Origin: Providencia huaxiensis
GTDB taxonomy: Bacteria; Pseudomonadota; Gammaproteobacteria; Enterobacterales; Enterobacteriaceae
NCBI RefSeq assembly: GCF_002843235.3
Contig: NZ_CP031123.2
Coordinates: forward strand, 62,001-126,000
Direction of reading: 5' to 3'
DNA length: 64,000 bases
Each line of letters begins with the position of its first letter. Positions within the stretch are counted from its first letter, which is position 1. The notes under the pieces are model-generated. The model made no database searches, was not told the DNA's origin, and was given only the letters and a program-made list of their open reading frames with translations. The translations under genes and the position numbers were made by a program. Of the stretch, positions 16,775 through 28,005 are shown piece after piece.

Positions 16775-17428
16775 TCACATTGAGCTAATGCCATCGTGCC
16801 CGTCTCTACCGCCATCAGGTCCACCGCGTCCTCCTTTTCCTCCTTGGCTACCATTACCCCCATTGCCGCCATTACCACTACCAGAGCCGTTGCCCCCATT
16901 ACCCCCGTTACCGCCATTAGTTCCACCATGCCCTCCATTACCCCCATTGCCATTTACCGTTCCATTACCGCCATTCCCACCACTACCACCACCATCGCCA
17001 TCACCGCCATTTCCACCATCACCTCCAGTTATACTGCCATTGCCGCCATTTCCTCCATTGCCATTACTGCCTTCTTCTGCGTTACCACCATTGCTACCAT
17101 TACCGTTATTTGATCCCGTTCCGCCATTTCCACCATTTTGACCATCACCCCCATGGCCACCGTGACCCCCATGGCCACCATGACCACCTTGACTATCATT
17201 TCCAGCTTGGCCCGAATTCCCATTTTGTCCATAGCTTACAAAGCTAAAAAATTTAGAATAGTAATATTGGCCATGGAGTTTCGAACATACCTTATTATTA
17301 ATTTCATTAATATTAAATTCATTTTTTAATAAACAATTAGATGCAGTATTAAATAAGGAGTGAGAGTATGCTGAAAATGAAATAGAACTCATTAATAAGA
17401 CACCAAGTGAGATGTAATTTTTATACAT
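16775..17428 (-). CDS. Secreted Gly-Asn-rich repeat protein with GGH run, function unknown
   Basis: Function is not recognised. The 217 residues comprise a Sec-type signal peptide (about 1-22, MYKNYISLGVLLMSSISFSAYS), a short N-terminal domain (23-66) with only two cysteines, Cys32 and Cys48, that could form a disulfide, and a long low-complexity tract (about 69-210) of GGN, GNG and GGD triplets. At 81-93 there are four consecutive GGH units. A GGAGG ribosome-binding site lies 8 bases before ATG 17428. It follows the related 73-codon gene by 61 bases on the same strand, with a hairpin between, so the two form an operon. Glycine tracts with His could bind metal or form an extended surface polymer; both are guesses. 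Confidence 0.75.
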   Translation of the reverse strand: MYKNYISLGVLLMSSISFSAYSHSLFNTASNCLLKNEFNINEINNKVCSKLHGQYYYSKFFSFVSYGQNGNSGQAGNDSQGGHGGHGGHGGHGGDGQNGGNGGTGSNNGNGSNGGNAEEGSNGNGGNGGNGSITGGDGGNGGDGDGGGSGGNGGNGTVNGNGGNGGHGGTNGGNGGNGGNGSGSGNGGNGGNGSQGGKGGRGGPDGGRDGHDGISSM

Positions 17429-17489: not shown

Positions 17490-17711
17490 TTATCTACCGT
17501 TGCCGCCATTACCGCCATTACCGCCGTTGCCGCCATTACCACCATTGCCACCATTACCACCATGACCGCCATTCCCACCATTTCCTCCATGGCTTTGTTC
17601 GTAAACAGTAGAATAAGTAGAAATATTGTCAGAATGTTTTTCTTGGAAAGAAGTTGCAGATGATAGAATTGGGAATAATAAAGATACTATGACAATAGAT
17701 GCTTTATACAT
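17490..17711 (-). CDS. Small secreted GGN-repeat protein, function unknown
   Basis: Function is not recognised. The 73 residues have a signal peptide (MYKASIVIVSLLFPILSSAT, cleavage likely near residue 19-20), a 20-residue polar stretch, then about ten Gly-Gly-Asn/His triplets to the C-terminus (HGGNGGNGGHGGNGG...). The leader closely resembles that of the 64-residue gene at 18158-18352, and the 5' untranslated regions of the two genes are alike too, indicating duplication. The tract is encoded by nearly perfect 9-bp DNA repeats, which could change length by slippage. It might be a shortened copy of the larger Gly-rich gene downstream, but the reading frame and ribosome-binding site (AGGATC) look intact. 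Confidence 0.65.
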   Translation of the reverse strand: MYKASIVIVSLLFPILSSATSFQEKHSDNISTYSTVYEQSHGGNGGNGGHGGNGGNGGNGGNGGNGGNGGNGR

Positions 17712-18157: not shown

Positions 18158-18352
18158 TTATTCGATGTTCAGCCAAACATCATCATCATCTCCATTTTTT
18201 ACTTGAAACCAAACATCATCATCATCTCCGTTATAGGCTATTTTTAAGTCTATACTTAGGATAGGTGGCTCTGGCGGGAAGGGAAGAATAGGGGTAGCCA
18301 AAGAGAGTGCTGGAAATAATAAAGATGCAAGTATGATTGATTTTTTAAACAT
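18158..18352 (-). CDS. Small secreted protein with NGDDDDVW repeats, function unknown
   Basis: Function is not recognised. The 64 residues have a signal peptide (MFKKSIILASLLFPALSLAT) nearly the same as that of the 73-residue GGN protein, a proline-rich segment (PILPFPPEPP) and two 12-residue repeats each starting NGDDDDVW (41-48 and 53-60). The repeats are encoded by near-identical 36-bp DNA units. The acidic tetra-Asp clusters are obvious candidate cation-binding sites, but no known family matches. An AAAGG ribosome-binding site precedes ATG 18352. It probably has its own promoter and terminator. Confidence 0.6.
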   Translation of the reverse strand: MFKKSIILASLLFPALSLATPILPFPPEPPILSIDLKIAYNGDDDDVWFQVKNGDDDDVWLNIE

Positions 18353-18509
18353 ATAATCGCCTTTTAAAGTTAATATTAAAATGAACTGCCTAGAAATAAT
18401 AAACTATTTTTTTTGATGTTCAATAAATAGCTTTATTTGTTTTTAATAAAAAATGAAATGGGTTTAATAAAATTGAATGCGAGGGGGTTAGGCTTATTTT
18501 GATTGATTT

Positions 18510-18546
18510 AAAACCATATTAATTAGTTATTTGATAATATGGTTTT
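18510..18546 (-). terminator. Possible terminator of the periplasmic repeat-protein gene
   Basis: AAAACCATATT pairs perfectly with AATATGGTTTT (11 bp) across a 15-base loop, 11 bases past the stop of the gene at 18557. The T-tract is short, so efficiency is uncertain. Confidence 0.5.
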
Positions 18547-18556
18547 AAAATTTCAA

Positions 18557-19021
18557 TTAATTATTTTTTAAATTTTCTATTATTTTACTTTGAATCGATT
18601 CTGATGAGCTGTTTTTATGAAAGCTTAACATAGTGACTGCTTTTTCATTTTCATTCATTTCGGAAAATGATTTCGCAACTTTTACTGCCGGTTGTTTATA
18701 GTTAGGTGATAGGCTTTGGTGGCGACTGATCATACTTTGCATTATTGGTGATGTATTGTTTTGCGTAAAACTCAATGCAGCAGCAGCTTGGGCGTGTTCA
18801 TCTAACTCAAGGAATGACTGAGTTGAATTGATATCATTATTGGTCGAAATACCCGCTTTACTTAAATGGCTATTAATCGATTTTAAATTAGAATAAGAAG
18901 TATTGTTTTCAGTGAAATTTAATGCATTTGCAGCATTATAATGTATTTCTTTTTCAGTTTGAGCGGCAGATACATGTCCTGTTACAGCTACAAGTGTTAA
19001 AGCAAAAATAAATTTTTTCAT
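18557..19021 (-). CDS. Periplasmic three-repeat protein under a predicted CusR box, function unknown
   Basis: No family is recognised. The 154 residues have a clear signal peptide (MKKFIFALTLVAVTGHVSA). The mature part is three degenerate repeats of about 45 residues, each with an acidic helix followed by an AA-AL-F-NNTS-like motif: NAANALNFTENNTSYSNLKS, then AAAALSFTQNNTSPIMQS, then AVTMLSFHKNSSSESIQS. It has no cysteine, scattered His and Met, and many Ser/Asn. An AAGGG ribosome-binding site lies 6 bases upstream. A near-perfect CusR box lies 76-97 bases before the start, and cusS lies upstream on the same strand, so it is probably a copper- or silver-induced periplasmic protein. The repeats and box are seen; the role is inferred. 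Confidence 0.75.
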   Translation of the reverse strand: MKKFIFALTLVAVTGHVSAAQTEKEIHYNAANALNFTENNTSYSNLKSINSHLSKAGISTNNDINSTQSFLELDEHAQAAAALSFTQNNTSPIMQSMISRHQSLSPNYKQPAVKVAKSFSEMNENEKAVTMLSFHKNSSSESIQSKIIENLKNN

Positions 19022-19096
19022 TGTGAACCCTTATTAAGTTAAATAGTTTATCTTATAACTATAATAAGGCTTTATTTCTGTCTGAATACTGACAAC

Positions 19097-19118
19097 AAAA
19101 TGACAAAATTGCCATTTA
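19097..19118. promoter_or_regulatory. Second CusR box, upstream of the periplasmic repeat protein
   Basis: The left arm AAAATGACAA is identical to the E. coli CusR box; after 2 bases the right arm is TTGCCATTTA instead of TTGTCATTTT. That is 18 of 20 conserved positions. It lies in the 107-bp gap after cusS, oriented to serve the leftward gene at 18557-19021. On the minus strand a TATTAT -10-like sequence follows. Confidence 0.75.
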
Positions 19119-19128
19119 TGGTAGACAT

Positions 19129-20520
19129 TCAATTTGGTTTCATAGGTAAAAATACAGTAAAGCGTGTTGAAAAATCATCTGATTTTACAGAGATCCTGCC
19201 TTTATGCGCTAATATAATTGATTTGACGATTGCCAACCCAATTCCACTTCCTTCATTTTTTCTTTGTCTTGATTTATCTACTCGATAAAATCTATCAAAG
19301 AGTTTTTCTAAGTGTTCTTCGGGTATTTTTATACCGGGATTGCTGATGATTAATTCAATACCCTCTTTTACATTTGAAATGTTAATGCTGACAGAGTCAC
19401 CCCTTGGGGTGTAGCGGATAGCATTTGATAATAAATTAGTAATCGCTCTTCTTAACATGTCTTTATCGGCCATAATAGGACTAGTGTCCCCAATTAGCTT
19501 AAGTTTTATTTCATTCTCTTCAGCGAGATATTCAAAATAATCAAATATGAGCTCTATTTCAGTTTTAATATTAATGATTTTTTTCTCTGGGATAAGCCTA
19601 TTATCATCTGCTTGAGCAAGAAAAAGCATATCAGAGATCATTCGTGATAGTCGGTTATATTCTTCCAAATTAGAATATAACACTTCAGCTAGCTCTTCTT
19701 TACTGCGGTTTTTACTCAAAGATATTTGAGTTTCAGTCATTAAATTAGTGATTGGTGTACGCATTTCATGAGCAATATCTGCCGAAAAATTTGTTTGCCT
19801 TACGAAAACATCTTCAATTTTTACTAACATCTGATTAAATGATTTTGTTAATTGCTTCAATTCATTAGGTACAGAATCAGGATCTAAACGGACGCTTAAG
19901 TTTTCGGATGTGACATTTTTTATTTCATCGCTTACATCTTTAAGGGGTTTTAATCCCTTTATCACAAGGAAATAAACGACAAGAATAGTAAATAAGCACA
20001 GTATAATTGCACTGATAATCAAACTGTTTATTAATGAGCTCAGATAATCATGATGAAAATTTAATGATAGCGCAGTAACTAATCGATATTGTTTAGGCTC
20101 TGAAGGAGGGCCCACCTGAATAAGACTTTCTGATAGACGATAATCTTTGAGCTCTACGTCTTGGTTATTTTTATCAGGATCATAATTTTTTAAGTGCGTA
20201 ATAAGTTTATCTGTTGCATTGGGAGATACTAATGTATTTCCTTTATTATCAATGAGATAAATGGTAGCATCTTGATGCTCATTAATAATGGTTTTAATTC
20301 GTGCGTATTGCTCACTTTGTGGATCTGAATTGCCATTTAATAAGCTTCGGATCGTTAAATTCAACTGGTTAAGTGTGTATTCATCTTGCTGCTTAAAATG
20401 TAACATAACTGAGTTGATCATGATCGAGCTAAATAATAGTAAGGCGAGGGAGAGAGTAATACTAATCAAAACAATAAGACGAATTGAAATAGAGACAGGA
20501 GATCGAAACAGCTTAATCAT
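19129..20520 (-). CDS. cusS: Copper/silver sensor histidine kinase CusS-like
   Basis: A 463-residue inner-membrane sensor kinase. It has a transmembrane helix at about 15-38, a periplasmic sensor domain (39-160), a second transmembrane helix (162-187), HAMP, a HisKA domain with phospho-accepting His251 ([16 protein letters not shown]) and an ATPase domain ending [11 protein letters not shown]. The layout is that of heavy-metal sensor kinases, and the neighbours cusR and cusCFBA identify it as CusS. Its start overlaps the cusR stop by 8 bases, so the pair is co-translated. E. coli CusS senses periplasmic Cu(I)/Ag(I). Its own 3' end is followed by a second CusR box. Confidence 0.9.
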
Positions 20521-21196
20521 TTTCAGGGATCTCGAGTAAATAGCCCATCCCTCTAATGGTATGAATCAATTTAGGTTCATAGCCTTGATCTATTTTAGCC
20601 CTCAGCCTTTTAACTGCAACATCAATGACATTGGTATCACTATCAAAATTCATATCCCAAACTTTTGAGGCGATAAGAGAACGAGAAAGAACTTCGCCTT
20701 GGTGAAGAATAAAAAATTCCAATAATGAAAATTCTTTACTGGTGAGTATAATTTTATCATTTTCACGTGTAACGCGTCGTTTGATCAGGTCAACATGCAA
20801 ATTAGCAATGGTAAATTGTGTTTTTTGGATGCTGTTATTGCCTCTGCGTAATAAAGTTCTTACTCGAGCAAGTAGCTCAGAAAAATCAAATGGCTTAACA
20901 AGATAATCGTCAGCACCTATCTCTAACCCTTTGACTCGATGTTCAACATTACCTAAAGCAGTAAGCATGAGGATTGGCGTATTTTTTCCTGTATTGCGTA
21001 AGTTTTTAGCAATCTCCCAGCCATTAATATCTGGCAACATCACATCAAGAATAATTAAATCATAGTCTTCAGTTGTCGCCATATGCAGGCCTGTAATGCC
21101 ATTTTCGATTGCATCAACAATAAACCCGGACTCACTTAAGCCTTTAGATAAGTATTCTCTCGTTTTATGTTCATCTTCAACAATAAGTAGTTTCAT
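20513..21196 (-). CDS. cusR: Copper/silver response regulator CusR-like
   Basis: A 227-residue OmpR-family regulator, the same length as E. coli CusR. The receiver domain has Glu7-Asp8, phospho-acceptor Asp51 (IILDVMLPD) and the Lys in [21 protein letters not shown]; the C-terminal winged helix contains [18 protein letters not shown] and ends [10 protein letters not shown]. It should activate cusCFBA and its own operon through the perfect palindrome in the 154-bp divergent region, and probably also the gene at 18557. It is transcribed with cusS. Confidence 0.92.
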
Positions 21197-21256: not shown

Positions 21257-21278
21257 AAAATGACAAATTTGTCATTTT
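21257..21278. promoter_or_regulatory. CusR box in the cusR-cusC divergent region
   Basis: A perfect 22-bp palindrome: AAAATGACAAA followed directly by its exact reverse complement. It matches the E. coli CusR box AAAATGACAANNTTGTCATTTT at every fixed position. It lies 61-82 bases before cusR and about 73 bases before cusC. Confidence 0.95.
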
Positions 21279-21350: not shown

Positions 21351-22760
21351 ATGTATTCCCCTAAAATATTAATAATAGCTTATGCCCTAATTTTGACTGG
21401 TTGTGTTTCGCTTGCCCCTGAATATCAACGCCCTAATTTTAATTTGCCTCATCAATTCAGTGGCAATGTTTCTGATGTAGTAACGCGGGATAAAACAGCG
21501 CGGGATAAAACAGAATTAGCAATACCAAGTTGGTCTCAATTTATTCAAGACCCACAAATGAAAAGCGTGATAGAAATTGCGCTTGAGAAAAACAGTGATT
21601 TATATCTTGCGGCCTTAGATGTAGAAGAAGCTCGTGTGCGTTTTGGGCTAGCAGGAGCAGAAAAATATCCTCAAATTAGTTCATCGATGAGCGGCGATTA
21701 TGGCCAATCATTAGAGTCTGGGTCATCCTTCAATAAGAAATACAGTGCAGGCGTTGATATCAGTTATGAACTGGACTTTTTTGGGCGTATTAAAAATTTA
21801 TCTGATGCCGATAAAGCAAAGTTTATTGCTTCTCAAGAGATGAAGCGTGCGACACAAATTATCACAATCAAAACGGTAGCAGAGGCGTATTTAGATGTGG
21901 TGTATAACCAGAAATTATTATTAATTGCGCAAGAGACGAAGCAAAGCTACCTCAATAGTCAATCGATTGTAATGCAAAAAGTGGCGGCAGGAAAAGCCGC
22001 GCTATCAGACCTAGAACAAGCTAAAGGGCAAGTACAGTCTATTTCTATTAATATCGAAAAAATTGAAAGTGAAATTGCAAAAAATGAAAATTTACTGAAT
22101 TTTTTGACAAATGACTATGTAACAAAAATAAATTTAGATCTAGGACGCTACGAGCCAAACTATCCTTTAATTACAACTCCTTCAGATATTCCCTCTGAAA
22201 TATTATTAAAACGCCCAGATATTATGGCTGCGGAGCAAAATATTATTTCTGAGAATGCCAGTATAGGTGTAGCAAGAGCCGCTTTCTTTCCTTCTATTTC
22301 CTTTAATACAGGAATTGAAAACAGTAATGATTCTTTAACAGGGTTATTTGACTCTTCAAATGGTATTTGGAATTTTATTCCTAAAATTACGCTACCTATT
22401 TTTACTGGTGGCACAAATAGCCGAAATTTAGAATTAGCAAATATCAGAAAAAATAAAGCAATAGCTAATTACGAAAAAAGTATTCAAGTAGCATTTCGAG
22501 AAGTGAAAGATGCCTTAGTGATCAAATCGAGTTTAGAAAAACAACTCATCTCCCAAGTACAATATGTCAACACGCTGCAAAACGTCTTAACACAGAAACA
22601 AGCGAGTTATCGATATGGCAGTTTGAGCTATCTCGATGTTCTTGAAGCACAGCGTAGCTTATTTACCGAACAACAAAATTTATTGATGTTGAAAATTGAA
22701 CAGCAGAAGAATGAAATAAATTTATTCTCTGCATTAGGTGGCGGATTAATAAAATCATGA
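21351..22760 (+). CDS. cusC: Outer-membrane copper/silver efflux lipoprotein CusC
   Basis: CusC is the trimeric outer-membrane channel of the CusCBA RND efflux pump. The 469 residues have a lipoprotein signal with lipobox LTGC (Cys18), followed by VSLAPEYQRP, typical of the TolC/NodT family, and two OEP domains with internal similarity (AEAYLDVVYNQKLLL and ...LEAQRSLFTEQQNLL). ATG 21351 is used; the ribosome-binding site AGAGG is 12 bases away, which is rather long. cusF starts 8 bases after its stop. It is the first gene of the cusCFBA operon, controlled by the upstream CusR box. Confidence 0.92.
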   Translation: MYSPKILIIAYALILTGCVSLAPEYQRPNFNLPHQFSGNVSDVVTRDKTARDKTELAIPSWSQFIQDPQMKSVIEIALEKNSDLYLAALDVEEARVRFGLAGAEKYPQISSSMSGDYGQSLESGSSFNKKYSAGVDISYELDFFGRIKNLSDADKAKFIASQEMKRATQIITIKTVAEAYLDVVYNQKLLLIAQETKQSYLNSQSIVMQKVAAGKAALSDLEQAKGQVQSISINIEKIESEIAKNENLLNFLTNDYVTKINLDLGRYEPNYPLITTPSDIPSEILLKRPDIMAAEQNIISENASIGVARAAFFPSISFNTGIENSNDSLTGLFDSSNGIWNFIPKITLPIFTGGTNSRNLELANIRKNKAIANYEKSIQVAFREVKDALVIKSSLEKQLISQVQYVNTLQNVLTQKQASYRYGSLSYLDVLEAQRSLFTEQQNLLMLKIEQQKNEINLFSALGGGLIKS

Positions 22761-22768
22761 GGGTAACA

Positions 22769-23110
22769 ATGAAAAAATTAAATACAGTATTTTTTGCAAT
22801 TTCAATGGCGATGTTAACAGCAACTAGTTATGCAAATGCTGCTGAACATAACCACTCTATTTATCCAGAAAAAGTCGCAGAGCCGACAATCAATACCGAA
22901 GGAACGCTAATCTCGATTGATAAAGATAATAAAAAGTTAACAATAAATCATAAAGAAATTCAAAGTATTGGCTGGCCACCAATGACGATGCGTTTTACCT
23001 ATGAAGATGAAAATATGATTAACGGCTTACAAGAAAATGATGAATTAAAATTTTCATTTGTACAACAAGGCAATCTTTCAATGTTGAAATCCGTCGAAAA
23101 GATAAACTAA
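22769..23110 (+). CDS. cusF: Periplasmic copper/silver chaperone CusF
   Basis: CusF binds Cu(I)/Ag(I) in the periplasm and delivers it to CusB. From ATG 22769 it is 113 residues with a signal peptide (MKKLNTVFFAISMAMLTATSYA). The metal site is intact: His61, Trp69, Met72 and Met74 in the GWPPMTMRF motif, corresponding to the His/Trp/Met/Met cluster of E. coli CusF. ATG 22769 is chosen over ATG 22757, which overlaps the cusC stop, because GAGGG lies 5 bases upstream and the protein then starts at its signal peptide. Confidence 0.94.
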   Translation: MKKLNTVFFAISMAMLTATSYANAAEHNHSIYPEKVAEPTINTEGTLISIDKDNKKLTINHKEIQSIGWPPMTMRFTYEDENMINGLQENDELKFSFVQQGNLSMLKSVEKIN

Positions 23111-23127: not shown

Positions 23128-24396
23128 ATGTCATTAGTTAACCTGACCAAATTGCTATTGGTAATTATTTTATCGAGCGTTATTTCAATTTTATTTTACC
23201 GATATTTTTTCGTTGTAGAAAATAATAACCAACCAGTTGAAAAACAAGAACGCACCGTATTGTATTGGTATGACCCGATGTATCCCAATACCAAGTTTGA
23301 TCAACCAGGGAAATCCCCGTTTATGGACATGGATCTTGTTCCTAAATATGCGGATGAAAACTTGGCTTCAGCGAATAGCAAAGGGATAACAATTAACCCA
23401 ACACAGACACAAAATTTAGGACTTAAAACGGTGGATGTAAAGTGGGGGAAATTAAGCTATGACTTAACATTTCCAGGCGAAATTGCATTTAATGATCATC
23501 AATTCGCTATCGTGCAAGCGCGAGAAAATGGTTTCGTTGAAAAAGTTTACCCATTCACCGTTGGTGAGAGGATCCAAAAAGGGGGTCCTATTGCTGATCT
23601 AACGATCCCTGCATGGGTTGAAGCGCAAAGTGAATATCTTGCACTCAAGCAGATGAATGCGAGCCAGCAAGATCTTAATAGCGTCATTGAGCGTTTACGT
23701 TTAAATGGCATGCCAGAGGGAGCACTTTCTCAGTTTATTAAAACAGGAAAAGTCCAATCACGTTTTACGATCCAAGCACCTATTTCAGGGGTAATTACTG
23801 CACTTAATCTACGTTTAGGGATGAACGTATCTAAAGAAGTTGTTATTGCACAAATACAAGGAACAGATCCATTATGGATTAATGCCTCTGTTCCTCAGTC
23901 AGTTGCTGAATTACTGAATAAACAAACAGAATTTACAGTTTCTATTCCCGCTTATCCTTCACAGTTATTTACTGTAAAAAACTGGCTGATATTACCTAGC
24001 GCAGACCAAGCAAGTCGTACAATTAATATTCGTACAGAAATTGCGGACCCTAGCCATTTATTAAAACCGGGTATGACTGCATATTTGAATTTAGTTGCAG
24101 AAGGTAATGAAAGTTTATTGATCCCTTCACAAGCCATTGTGGATTCAGGGAAAGAACAACATGTTATTGCTGTTGGTGAGAATGGTGAATTTATTCCGAA
24201 AAGAGTACGAGTGCTCAGTGAATCTCAACAAATGACGGCAATATCTGAAGGGCTACAAGTGGGTGAGCATATTGTGACTCAGGGGATTTTCCTGATTGAT
24301 TCCGAAGCGAATATTGCGGGAGCATTAGCCAAGATGGAAGCACTTCCTGAGCCTTCAGCGTCATCTAATCATTCATCACATAAATCTCAGGAGTAG
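23128..24396 (+). CDS. cusB: Copper/silver efflux membrane fusion protein CusB
   Basis: CusB is the periplasmic adaptor linking CusA to CusC and receives metal from CusF. The 422 residues begin with one transmembrane segment (about 5-28), followed by the heavy-metal domain WYDPMYPNTKFDQPGKSPF-M-DMDLVP with its conserved Met residues, a lipoyl-like barrel (ENGFVEKVYPFTVGERIQKG), a helical hairpin, and the second half (SRFTIQAPISGVITAL). The C-terminus is His/Ser-rich. It lies 17 bases after cusF and 3 bases before cusA, so the genes are tightly coupled. Confidence 0.95.
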   Translation: MSLVNLTKLLLVIILSSVISILFYRYFFVVENNNQPVEKQERTVLYWYDPMYPNTKFDQPGKSPFMDMDLVPKYADENLASANSKGITINPTQTQNLGLKTVDVKWGKLSYDLTFPGEIAFNDHQFAIVQARENGFVEKVYPFTVGERIQKGGPIADLTIPAWVEAQSEYLALKQMNASQQDLNSVIERLRLNGMPEGALSQFIKTGKVQSRFTIQAPISGVITALNLRLGMNVSKEVVIAQIQGTDPLWINASVPQSVAELLNKQTEFTVSIPAYPSQLFTVKNWLILPSADQASRTINIRTEIADPSHLLKPGMTAYLNLVAEGNESLLIPSQAIVDSGKEQHVIAVGENGEFIPKRVRVLSESQQMTAISEGLQVGEHIVTQGIFLIDSEANIAGALAKMEALPEPSASSNHSSHKSQE

Positions 24397-24399
24397 AGT

Positions 24400-27300
24400 A
24401 TGTTGGAATGGATTATAAGACGCTCAGTCGCTAATCGCTTTTTAGTCCTAATGGGAGTCATGTTTTTAGTTATTGCGGGTATTTGGAGTATCCGCAGTAC
24501 ACCTGTTGATGCATTACCTGACTTATCTGATGTACAAGTGATCATCAAAACCACTTATCCAGGGCAAGCGCCCCAACTGGTCGAAAACCAAGTCACATAC
24601 CCAATAACGACGACGATGTTATCTGTGCCGGGAGCAAAAACGGTACGGGGTTTTTCTGCATTTGGTGACTCATATGTTTATGTTATTTTTGAAGATAATA
24701 CAGATTTATACTGGGCTCGTTCACGCGTTTTAGAATATTTAAATCAAGTCCAAAACCAATTGCCAAAAGGTGCGGTAGCCTCTATTGGCCCGGATGCGAC
24801 AGGGGTTGGCTGGGTTTTTGAATATGCTTTAGTGGACAAAACAGGAAAGCATAATCTAGCTGAACTGCGCTCATTACAAGATTGGTTTTTGAAATATGAA
24901 TTGAAGGCTTTGCCAAATGTTTCCGAAGTTGCAACCGTCGGAGGTGTGGTTAAATCTTATCAAATCTTAGTTGACCCGCTCAAGCTCAGCCAATTTTCCG
25001 TGACATTACCTGAAATAAAACAGGCAGTTGAAATGGCTAACCAAGAAGCGGGTGGCTCATCGATTGAAATTGCTGAAGCTGAATATATGGTTAGAGCGAG
25101 TGGCTATCTTCAATCTATTGATGATTTCAATAAAATCTACCTAAAAACTCCCGAAAATGGCGTGCCAATTTACCTACAAGATGTTGCTCGAATACAGGAA
25201 GGCCCCGAAATGCGTCGTGGGGTTGCTGAGCTAAATGGGGAAGGCGAGGTAGTTGGTGGTATTATCTTGCTTCGCTCAGGTGAAAATGCACGTAATGTGA
25301 TCCATGATGTAAAACAGAAACTTGAAGATTTAAGTGCCAGTTTACCGGAAGGCATCGAAATTATCACAACTTATGATAGAAGTATTCTTATTGATAACGC
25401 GATTGATAATTTAAGCTATAAGTTGCTAGAAGAATTTATTGTTGTCGCATTGGTGTGCGCTATCTTCCTATGGCATTTCCGTTCTGCATTAGTCGCAATT
25501 ATTTCCTTGCCTCTCGGATTATTTATTGCCTTTATTGTCATGCGTTATCAAGGAATAAATGCAAATATTATGTCATTGGGGGGGATTGCAATTGCTATCG
25601 GGGCAATGGTAGATGCCGCCATTGTGATGATCGAAAATGCGCATAAAAAATTAGAAAAATGGCAACATGAAAATGAAGGTAAAGCCATTGATAATACCCA
25701 GCGTTGGAAAGTTATTACTGACTCTGCTGTTGAAGTTGGGCCGGCATTATTTATCAGTTTATTAATTATCACATTGTCTTTTATTCCTATCTTTACGTTG
25801 GAAGGACAAGAAGGCCGTTTATTTGGCCCACTCGCATTTACAAAAACCTATGCCATGGCGGGGGCTGCAGCGTTAGCGTTAATTGTGATTCCAATCCTAA
25901 TGGGGTATTGGATCCGCGGTAATATTCCAAATGAAAATAAAAATCCACTGAATCGTTGGTTGATTGCTCTCTACAGTCCTATTCTAATTAAGGTATTAGC
26001 ATGGCCGAAGACCACCTTATTAATTGGTTTCTTATCTTTATTTACCGTGATATGGCCATTAAAACATTTAGGGGGGGAATTTCTTCCTGCGATTAATGAA
26101 GGTGACTTACTTTATATGCCTTCAACACTGCCGGGAGTTTCGCCTGCCCAAGCGGCATTTTTACTACAAAATACAGATAAGCTAATCAAAACTATTCCTG
26201 AGGTCGATACGGTATTTGGTAAAGTCGGTAAAGCTGAAACGGCAACGGACTCAGCCCCTATGGAGATGATTGAAACAACGATACGTTTGAAGCCGCAAGC
26301 AGAGTGGCGAGAAGGGATGACACTTGAAAAAATTATTGATGAGCTTGATGAAACCGTGCGTTTGCCCGGGGTTGCAAACTTATGGGTTCCGCCTATTCGC
26401 AATCGTATTGACATGTTATCTACGGGAGTCAAAAGCCCTATAGGCATCAAAGTGTCAGGAAGAGATCTTGATGAGATCGATGCATTAGCCCAAGAAATTG
26501 AAAAAGTGACAAAATCGGTTCCCGGGGTTGTTTCTGTTTTGGCTGAGCGATTGGTTGGTGGGCGTTATATTGATGTCAAAATTGACAGAGAAAAAGCGGC
26601 ACGTTTTGGCATGAGTATCAGTGATGTACAAGTTTATATTTCAATGGCGACTGGTGGGGAAATGATCGGGGAAACGGTTGAAGGGATTGAGCGTTACCCA
26701 ATTAGCATAAGATATCCTCAAGATTACCGAAATAGCGTATCTGCGATGAAATTATTGCCAATTTTAACGCCGAGCAAACAGCAAATTGTACTTAGTGATG
26801 TTGCTGATGTATCTGTGAATATGGGCGCTCCAATGTTGAAAACAGAGAACGCAAGACCGACTAGCTGGATTTATATTGATGCGCGTGATCGCGATATGGT
26901 CTCTGTTATTAAAGATATTGATGCCGCAATAAAAGATAACATCCAAATGAAGCCGGGCTTGAGTTATTCCTTTACGGGACAATTTGAATTGCTCGAAAGA
27001 GCCAACCAAAAATTAATGTTAATGGTTCCTGCTACCATACTGATTATTTTTGTCCTGCTTTATTTAGCATTCAGACGATTTAGTGAAGCATTACTGATTT
27101 TATTAAGCTTACCTTTTGCTTTAGTGGGCGCTATTTGGTTCCTTTATTGGATGAACTTTAATTTATCGGTTGCAACAGGGACTGGGTTTATTGCATTGGC
27201 AGGTGTCGCCGCTGAATTTGGCGTAGTTATGTTGATTTATTTACGCCATGCAATCGAAGATAAAGAAAAACAGCAAGGAATAAGCAAGTTATCAAACCAA

Positions 27301-27537
27301 GATTTAGACCATGCATTATATGAAGGTGCTGTTTTACGTGTCCGTCCTAAAGCCATGACAGTTGCCGTAATTTTAGCGGGTTTATTGCCAATATTACTTG
27401 GGACAGGAGTCGGTTCGGAAGTCATGAGCCGTATAGCAGCACCGATGATTGGCGGCATGATCACCGCGCCATTATTGTCCCTATTTATTATTCCTGCAGC
27501 TTATAAATTAATCTGCCAGTTACGCCATAAAAAATAG
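24400..27537 (+). CDS. cusA: Copper/silver efflux RND transporter CusA
   Basis: CusA is the proton-driven inner-membrane pump of the heavy-metal-efflux RND family, exporting Cu(I)/Ag(I). The 1045 residues (E. coli 1047) show 12 transmembrane segments in the RND pattern, with two large periplasmic loops. The signature [19 protein letters not shown] near the N-terminus and [23 protein letters not shown] in TM4 mark the HME branch. Met residues in the porter domain ([26 protein letters not shown]) correspond to the metal-binding Met cluster. The operon continues into the copG-like gene 45 bases downstream. Confidence 0.96.
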
Positions 27538-27582: not shown

Positions 27583-28005
27583 ATGAAAAAGATAATTTTA
27601 GGTGGAATGTTTTTACTCTCATTTTCTGCATTTTCTCAAAACCAGAGCGTGCAATTGTATAAAGATGCAAATTGTGGCTGCTGCCAATTATGGGGAGAAG
27701 GAGTTAAAAAAGCAGGGTATGACGTTGTGGTCAATGAAATCAGTTATGATGACTTGAACAAACTGAATGATGAGCTGAATGTGCCATACAACTTACGCAG
27801 TTGCCATATCGCTAAATACAAAGGTAAGGTGATTGTTGGTCATGTTCCTGTCAGCAGTCTTGATGCGATTGATACCTTACCGGCGGATGTGGTAGGAATT
27901 TCTGTTCCGGGTATGCCAATTGGTAGCCTAGGGATGGAGCAGCCGGATGGCCGTACTCAGCCTTATTCTGTGGTGCAGTTTAAAGCAAATGGGGAATATC
28001 GTTAA
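27583..28005 (+). CDS. copG: CopG-like periplasmic copper protein (DUF411)
   Basis: A 140-residue exported protein of the DUF411 family, whose Pseudomonas/Vibrio member CopG is a thioredoxin-like periplasmic copper protein. It has a signal peptide (about 1-18), the conserved motif CGCC (Cys31, Cys33, Cys34), Cys74-His75 in LRSCH and His87 in VGHVP, all likely metal ligands, and the C-terminal family motif GMPIGSLGMEQPDG. It lies 45 bases after cusA on the same strand with no terminator between, so it probably belongs to the cus operon. E. coli cusCFBA has no such gene. The symbol is by family and not proven. Confidence 0.85.
   Translation: MKKIILGGMFLLSFSAFSQNQSVQLYKDANCGCCQLWGEGVKKAGYDVVVNEISYDDLNKLNDELNVPYNLRSCHIAKYKGKVIVGHVPVSSLDAIDTLPADVVGISVPGMPIGSLGMEQPDGRTQPYSVVQFKANGEYR

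Follow-up and report, generated by a model that had tools for sequence, protein, structure and literature searches.

Organization of the locus

The window, which is the whole 64,000-nucleotide stretch of Providencia huaxiensis DNA analysed here, carries a cus locus with divergent cusRS and cusCFBA genes and a DUF411 gene after cusA (Table 1). An ATG-started open reading frame, which is real and encodes a protein of 154 residues, begins 107 nt beyond the cusS stop codon on the same strand. The order silC, silRS, silE is common to three plasmid sil-type loci, and the Providencia gene sits in the corresponding SilE position by cusS. A DUF411 gene beside silA is visible only in the Leclercia plasmid L031, the sole plasmid stretch long enough to include it.

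Table 1. Features of the P. huaxiensis cus locus, numbered from the first position of the window.
Feature	Position	Strand	Remarks
A+T-rich terminator-like hairpin	18502..18557	-	immediately 3' of the stop codon
SilE/PcoE-family CDS, ligand-poor form, signal-like leader	18557..19021	-	154 aa, ATG start
Repeat 3, residues 122-149	18575..18658	-	predicted helix-loop-helix; M122, M131, H135
Repeat 2, residues 73-101	18719..18805	-	predicted helix-NNTS-helix; His pair H76/H101, plus M94/M97
Repeat 1, residues 27-52	18866..18943	-	NNTS-type loop; His pair H27/H52; helix prediction of very low confidence
Putative N-terminal signal peptide region, residues 1-20	18962..19021	-	from alignment with the SilE leader
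-10 element TATTAT	19061..19066	-	31-36 nt past the box
ACAG element	19078..19081	-	16-19 nt past the box; cusC and plasmid silE promoters have it at the same distance
Accessory TGTCA	19090..19094	-	3-7 nt past the box; same distance in the promoters of cusC and of silE on plasmids L031 and L033
CusR-type palindrome	19097..19118	-	18/20 fixed letters (2 mismatches)
cusS, sensor kinase	19129..20520	-	
cusR, response regulator	20513..21196	-	
CusR box at cusC, perfect match	21257..21278	+	between cusR and cusC
cusC	21351..22760	+	
cusF	22757..23110	+	
cusB	23128..24396	+	
cusA	24400..27537	+	
DUF411 protein gene after cusA	27583..28005	+	likewise adjoins silA in the Leclercia plasmid L031

The N-terminus of the 154-residue protein is hydrophobic and signal-like by eye and aligns with the leader of SilE, to which PMC5008109 assigns 20 residues; cysteine is absent past residue 21. 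Both features had been described in an earlier note on this DNA. The three repeats of that note also stand, but their period is 49 residues (N39, N88 and N137) rather than 45, and the third loop reads KNSSS instead of an NNTS motif. An SFTENNTS-type motif is conserved. In the P. huaxiensis lineage the His pair of repeat 3 is missing; M122, M131 and H135 are found in this repeat of the protein. The hairpin 3' of the gene has a folding energy of -16 kcal/mol (z -5.6), which none of 200 shuffles equalled. Pairwise comparison of 13 orthologues, with the shortened L018 omitted, gave a median dN/dS of 0.26 for the gene versus 0.08 for cusS (dS was usable in 30 of the 78 pairs); the protein is thus under purifying selection, maintained yet fast-evolving. 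The orthologue in genome G009 is shortened, with further stops downstream.

Just downstream of the gene, a 64-residue open reading frame (18158-18352, minus strand) begins with a signal-like segment and contains NGDDDDVW as a doubled motif; it is kept in three close relatives (L006-L008), and the matches found elsewhere are just 17-22 residues long. Two adjoining Gly-rich frames with GGNGG repeats and signal-like starts follow at 16775-17428 and 17490-17711 on the same strand.

The 154-residue protein as a divergent SilE/PcoE homologue

The HMM search that the earlier note had proposed for the protein found the NCBIfam SilE model (NF047789) with an E-value of 4.3e-8 and 33.6 bits, far under the 200-bit equivalog cut-off. 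A Pfam library without PF27346 gave no match above cut-off, and PF27346.1 is precomputed on all six homologues of the first search, on 72 SilE relatives and on 13 matches of the profile search. Profile-profile comparison with SilE (hhalign, leaders included) yielded a probability of 99.3 and an E-value of 1.5e-20. Against a SilE model stripped of signal peptides, the protein scored 50.7 bits, its 14 orthologues 44.1-66.3 bits and a paralogue in its own genome 82.6 bits; the reversed protein scored 0.4 bits, and 2000 shuffles of the mature sequence at most 9.4 bits. In 392 genomes drawn from the family, the SilE model had matches in 49 and matches above the cut-off in 24, compared with none in 14 controls. 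The relation lies beyond the reach of plain tblastn, since a search of the plasmids with the protein found no silE at E<=0.01; its sole weak match, on an annotated IS5 transposase, was disregarded. Among solved structures no relative was found (best E=0.82).

These comparisons support well the view that the protein is a divergent member of the SilE/PcoE family, encoded where SilE would be expected. The earlier note had found no known Cus component and had seen a candidate new factor, a view that this homology and the SilE position overturn. The paralogue of the same genome lies at C6:2543717-2544208 (L034 5718-6209, plus strand) and scores 53.5 bits with the SilE model, against 27.8 bits for the 154-residue protein; by eye, its surroundings contain no recognisable metal genes. 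Short SilE-like proteins of 56-156 residues also occur in other genera (L080-L091), and some of their genes (among them L083, L085, L088 and L089) are preceded, by eye, by a degenerate version of the promoter layout described below, with 5-9 box mismatches. As judged from L080-L091, the SilE-like family seems to be wider than the plasmid sil and pco systems.

Named database entries of the Providencia family are mostly "hypothetical protein". Among titles from the literature on SilE or on cusS in Providencia, in a search mostly outside the subscription journals, none names the gene. The word "Providencia" is absent from the portion of PMC3548706 that was searched, and that portion reports no PcoE homologues beyond the PcoE orthologue set.

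A CusR-type promoter shared with cusC and plasmid silE

The CusR box consensus, as used both here and in the earlier note, is matched perfectly in 14 of 14 cusR-cusC spacers. The two boxes that the note had reported, one agreeing at 18 of 20 fixed letters ahead of the gene and a perfect one between cusR and cusC, were both recovered (Table 1). They are the only two matches with at most three mismatches in the window, where 0.05 would be expected per shuffled window, and none of 100 shuffles had two. The 4.8-Mb genome has seven such sites, one perfect, two with two mismatches and four with three; the reversed pattern gave two sites on the forward strand. The two sites with two mismatches belong to the gene and to hprRS-msrPQ. 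The latter, at L035 4380-4401, is a CusR/HprR-type palindrome that faces msrP by hprRS and is without ACAG; gene names around it were assigned by eye from the reading frames.

Similarity extends past the box. The promoters of cusC, of the gene and of silE on the Leclercia plasmid share one layout, box-2 nt-TGTCA-8 nt-ACAG-11 nt-TANNAT. All 13 fixed letters 3' of the box are present in 12 of the 14 promoters of the gene and in 10 of the 14 cusC promoters, and the other two and four, respectively, have 12 of 13. The plasmid boxes are weaker (3, 3 and 4 mismatches for silE; 2, 3 and 2 for silC). The silE promoter of the Salmonella sp. plasmid (L032) is one letter off (GGTCA), that of Pantoea (L033) is one letter off in the -10 element, and the three plasmid silC promoters retain TGTCA and ACAG with poorer -10 elements. 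Scored with a 33-letter signature, the window gave 33 for cusC, 31 for the gene and 26 for the next match (the cusC box read in reverse), and 120 random order-1 strands gave at most 24; the matches of these promoters themselves are not independent, because the signature was drawn from them. The plasmid promoter and the genome count offer more independent support. Searched in the whole genome with up to three mismatches, TTGTCATN5TGTCAN8ACAGN11TANNAT has two exact sites, namely the cusC promoter and that of the gene, plus one site with two mismatches and none for the reversed control. The two-mismatch site resembles a Pho box.

In the 14 orthologues, aligned on their best box match, the fixed signature columns have a mean majority of 94.6% (30 of 33 columns agree in at least 12 sequences), compared with 64.8% for the other columns of the same stretch (12 of 65); the 25 nt upstream of the box reach 53%. 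The box ends 73-82 nt before the ATG in all 14 cus-linked orthologues, with one mismatch in two of them, two in six, three in four and four in two. The earlier note had said that its proposal would be contradicted by related genomes with the gene but no box. None was observed; 14 of 14 keep the box, G009 and G013 with four mismatches. In 7 of 7 cus-unlinked paralogues tested there is no CusR box, the best sites having 6-8 mismatches.

Co-occurrence with cusRS

Sixty genomes were searched, 24 of the genus (its own included) and 36 of other genera. The protein has a match in 15 of them, all within the genus; 14 of these have the cus-linked orthologue, and G010 has the paralogue type only. That ligand-poor paralogue stands in a genome without cus. 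CusA and CusS (each at E<=1e-100) occur in exactly the same 14 of 24 genomes as the cus-linked gene, the co-occurrence with cusRS that the earlier note had asked about; belonging to one locus, the three count as one linked unit and not as three independent facts. In G011, cusA (C1:732392-735528) is spread over several frames and the gene and box are still kept; the HprS gene of that genome is likewise in pieces.

In E. coli, the DNA recognised by CusR is recognised by HprR as well (PMC8249747), and therefore the tracking of the gene with HprS was tested. HprS (E<=1e-60) occurs in 16 of the 24 genomes of the genus: nine, G011 with its fragmented HprS gene among them, have both HprS and the gene, five have cus and the gene without HprS, seven have HprS without cus, and three have neither. 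The gene tracks cusRS; HprS does not track the gene. Promoter anatomy, the box in 14 of 14 orthologues and co-occurrence with cusRS rather than hprRS together give strong support to membership of the gene in the Cus regulon, as the earlier note had suggested.

Loss and retention of metal ligands

After residue 21, the protein has 5 His and 4 Met; in 15 SilE-type proteins the numbers are 10-14 and 8-16, respectively. In published peptide work, silver is placed in HxxM sites, and MX2H binding is mentioned too (PMC10080550). HxxM motifs number 3-7 in each of the 15 SilE-type proteins and are absent from all 14 orthologues and all 7 paralogues; MxxH is left in eight of these orthologues and six of these paralogues, and the 154-residue protein has none.

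Nine His and four Met of SilE have been tested by mutation (PMC5008109). Each of the nine His sites is occupied by His in 15 of 15 SilE-type proteins. Among the 14 orthologues, His is found at SilE position 62 in 11, at 87 in 14, at 111 in 8 and at 136 in 8 of 13, and at positions 38, 69, 80, 118 and 129 in none; of the tested Met, M108 is kept in 13, M83 in 10, and M72 and M90 in none. When the positions are placed on the predicted hairpin, this pattern separates into two tiers. At the open end (mouth), where helix 1 starts and helix 2 ends, His survives in 69 of 83 orthologue cells and 38 of 40 paralogue cells; near the turn it survives in 0 of 83 and 0 of 40. The turn-near His are replaced in orthologues by Leu (41), Ile (17), Asn (12), Met (8) and others (5), and on the turn side of helix 1 the change is to Leu in 41 of 42 cells. 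Met occupies 14 of 83 mouth cells and 10 of 83 turn cells of the orthologues; six further turn Met cells, in repeat 3, hold a new His. Met is variable in the SilE-type proteins too (61 of 77 mouth and 51 of 90 turn cells).

Invariant residues are enriched in His. In a 16-sequence alignment, 3 of 5 His are invariant, compared with 6 among the 129 remaining mature residues (p=0.002), and within columns filled in every row 3 of 4 versus 6 of 83 (p=0.003), both p values ignoring kinship. In repeat 3, eight of the 14 orthologues have both mouth His and six have neither (five of one clade plus the shortened L018), so that at most two loss events are needed. In repeat 2, L013-L015 have lost one mouth His and retained the other, which disfavours strict pairing. 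The share of ILVFWY in the mature protein is 0.18-0.23, against 0.07-0.12 in six SilE proteins scored; with Ala and Met added there is no difference (0.32-0.37 and 0.31-0.39).

Ancestry and predicted structure

A tree of 35 proteins (11 of the 14 orthologues, 9 of the paralogue type, 8 of the SilE type and 7 others; midpoint root) groups the Providencia proteins, whether linked to cus or not, into a single clade (100/100) on a long stem of 1.53. Next to this clade (86/91) stands a SilE-like protein with three repeats from a Salmonella sp. plasmid, and 16 of the 32 inner branches are open. Among the family members examined outside the genus, HxxM is scarce only in L080 and L081 (one each) and in the 74-residue L091 (none). 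The simplest reading would be a single ligand loss in the Providencia lineage, because nearly all examined family members of other genera keep HxxM; its direction depends on the midpoint root.

AlphaFold predicted the same helix-loop-helix layout for repeats 2 and 3 of the protein and for the SilE protein P0013, at low confidence in both cases (pLDDT 51.3 and 56.8, respectively). The predicted helices span residues 75-84 and 92-104, which contain H76 and H101, and 124-133 and 141-152. From these limits, and at the low confidence of both models, the mouth His may pair across the hairpin. The expectation that the ligand-poor form would model better than SilE failed, and the models therefore lend no support to the idea of a pre-folded protein; they neither support nor exclude such a form. 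Charge-hydropathy values range from -0.047 to 0.05 for 13 cus-linked proteins and from -0.171 to 0.019 for six SilE proteins; of five paralogues, four fall between 0.10 and 0.117 and a short one at -0.002.

Proposed role and alternatives

We propose that the protein buffers Cu(I)/Ag(I) in the periplasm, under the control of CusR and with a lower capacity than SilE, a role that we regard as rather probable. Under copper or silver stress, CusS-CusR would switch on cusCFBA together with the gene, CusR binding to two promoters of identical geometry. The product would be exported to the periplasm, where its three helix-NNxS-helix repeats keep mainly the open-end His, the turn-near His having been replaced, mostly by Leu and Ile. 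With mainly the open-end His kept, it is proposed to hold a small number of Cu(I)/Ag(I) ions, roughly one in each hairpin, with two His pairs left in P. huaxiensis, and thus to buffer the metal at lower capacity until export by CusF/CusCBA. The metal buffer of the earlier note is still the likeliest role, but the loss of most SilE metal ligands weakens the case for it, and the patterned loss of half of the SilE His suggests that metal is probably handled unlike in the classic "sponge". A more specific reading is a tentative possibility: Providencia may have turned the SilE sponge into a pre-organised metal carrier, in which the turn tier forms a hydrophobic core, so that the protein would fold without need for silver, and each hairpin mouth keeps a single bis-His site for Cu(I)/Ag(I), adapted to passing the metal on to CusF/CusB and not to storing it.

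The buffer role has to be weighed against other explanations. Ligand-poor paralogues without a CusR box exist, and metal handling therefore need not be the role of the protein. It might have lost metal binding altogether and be a pre-folded helical-repeat protein of the periplasm, for example in envelope or protein protection, that merely still belongs to the CusR regulon. Replacement of the turn-side His mostly by Leu and Ile, the raised ILVFWY share, the conserved SFTENNTS-type motif and the paralogues away from the cus locus would all fit; nevertheless we judge it rather unlikely, as His is over-represented among the invariant residues, hydrophobic content is equal once Ala and Met are included, and AlphaFold confidence does not exceed that of SilE. 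At the opposite extreme, a full SilE/PcoE equivalent, acting as a disordered sponge with many metal sites, would accord with position, promoter, family and the low-confidence models of both proteins, but is improbable for a protein with 5 His and 4 Met, where SilE-type proteins have 10-14 and 8-16, and with no HxxM.

The remaining doubts concern the box. That it serves HprR, and hence oxidative stress, instead of CusR is suggested by the shared DNA recognition in E. coli (PMC8249747) and by the similar box at hprRS-msrPQ in the same genome; five genomes have the gene and box without HprS (E<=1e-60), seven have HprS without cus and the cus-linked gene, and the msrP box is without the ACAG element, all of which makes this explanation very improbable. 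Mere chance resemblance could invoke the 2 of 20 differing letters, and up to four in orthologues, but it is hardly credible for a box kept in 14 of 14 orthologues at 73 to 82 nt before the ATG, within signature columns that are 95% conserved versus 65% for the others and with a geometry identical in the cusC and L031 silE promoters.

PMC5008109 describes SilE as indispensable for silver resistance, its precise role being unconfirmed at the time. A homologue in which the promoter, the locus and one His tier are kept and the second tier is gone allows "sponge" to be told apart from "fold" and "hand-over", and which SilE ligands matter becomes testable by comparison. The Providencia family of mostly "hypothetical" proteins gains a concrete regulon and family. 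If the carrier reading is true, the sponge and its stripped form would constitute a natural experiment of a disordered metal protein becoming folded.

Comparison with known SilE and PcoE systems

Control of a family member by CusRS is already known in print: PcoE is CusRS-controlled and copper-induced (PMC7558416), and SilE is expressed from its own silver-induced promoter (PMC5008109). What appears from the sequences to be new is a SilE/PcoE relative in which a consistent half of the metal-gripping His is lost and the other half mostly kept.

The protein resembles SilE in its family, the M[ND]EHE-A and NNxxS landmarks of the repeats, the signal-like leader, the lack of Cys, the position after the silRS-type genes and a CusR-type promoter of its own with the same geometry (L031). 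They differ in the ligands: 15 aligned SilE-type proteins have 10-14 His, 8-16 Met and 3-7 HxxM, whereas the Providencia branch is without HxxM and without the turn-nearest His. In addition, the first repeat is incomplete in classic SilE, compared to three repeats in the Providencia protein. The link to PcoE runs through SilE, with which PcoE shares 48% identity; PcoE has ten His and fifteen Met (both from PMC5008109) and is part of pco, not of a chromosomal cus locus. Nearest in the midpoint-rooted tree (86/91) is the SilE-like protein of Salmonella sp. 14 plasmid p14-120 (L032 5529-6026), which likewise has three repeats and a gene after a sensor kinase gene, but carries the full ligand set of 14 His, 16 Met after residue 21 and 7 HxxM. 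Moreover, the cus-unlinked Providencia paralogues (L019-L025; own genome L034 5718-6209) belong to the same ligand-poor clade (100/100), and differ in having no CusR box (7/7) and, at the L034 locus, no cus neighbours by eye.
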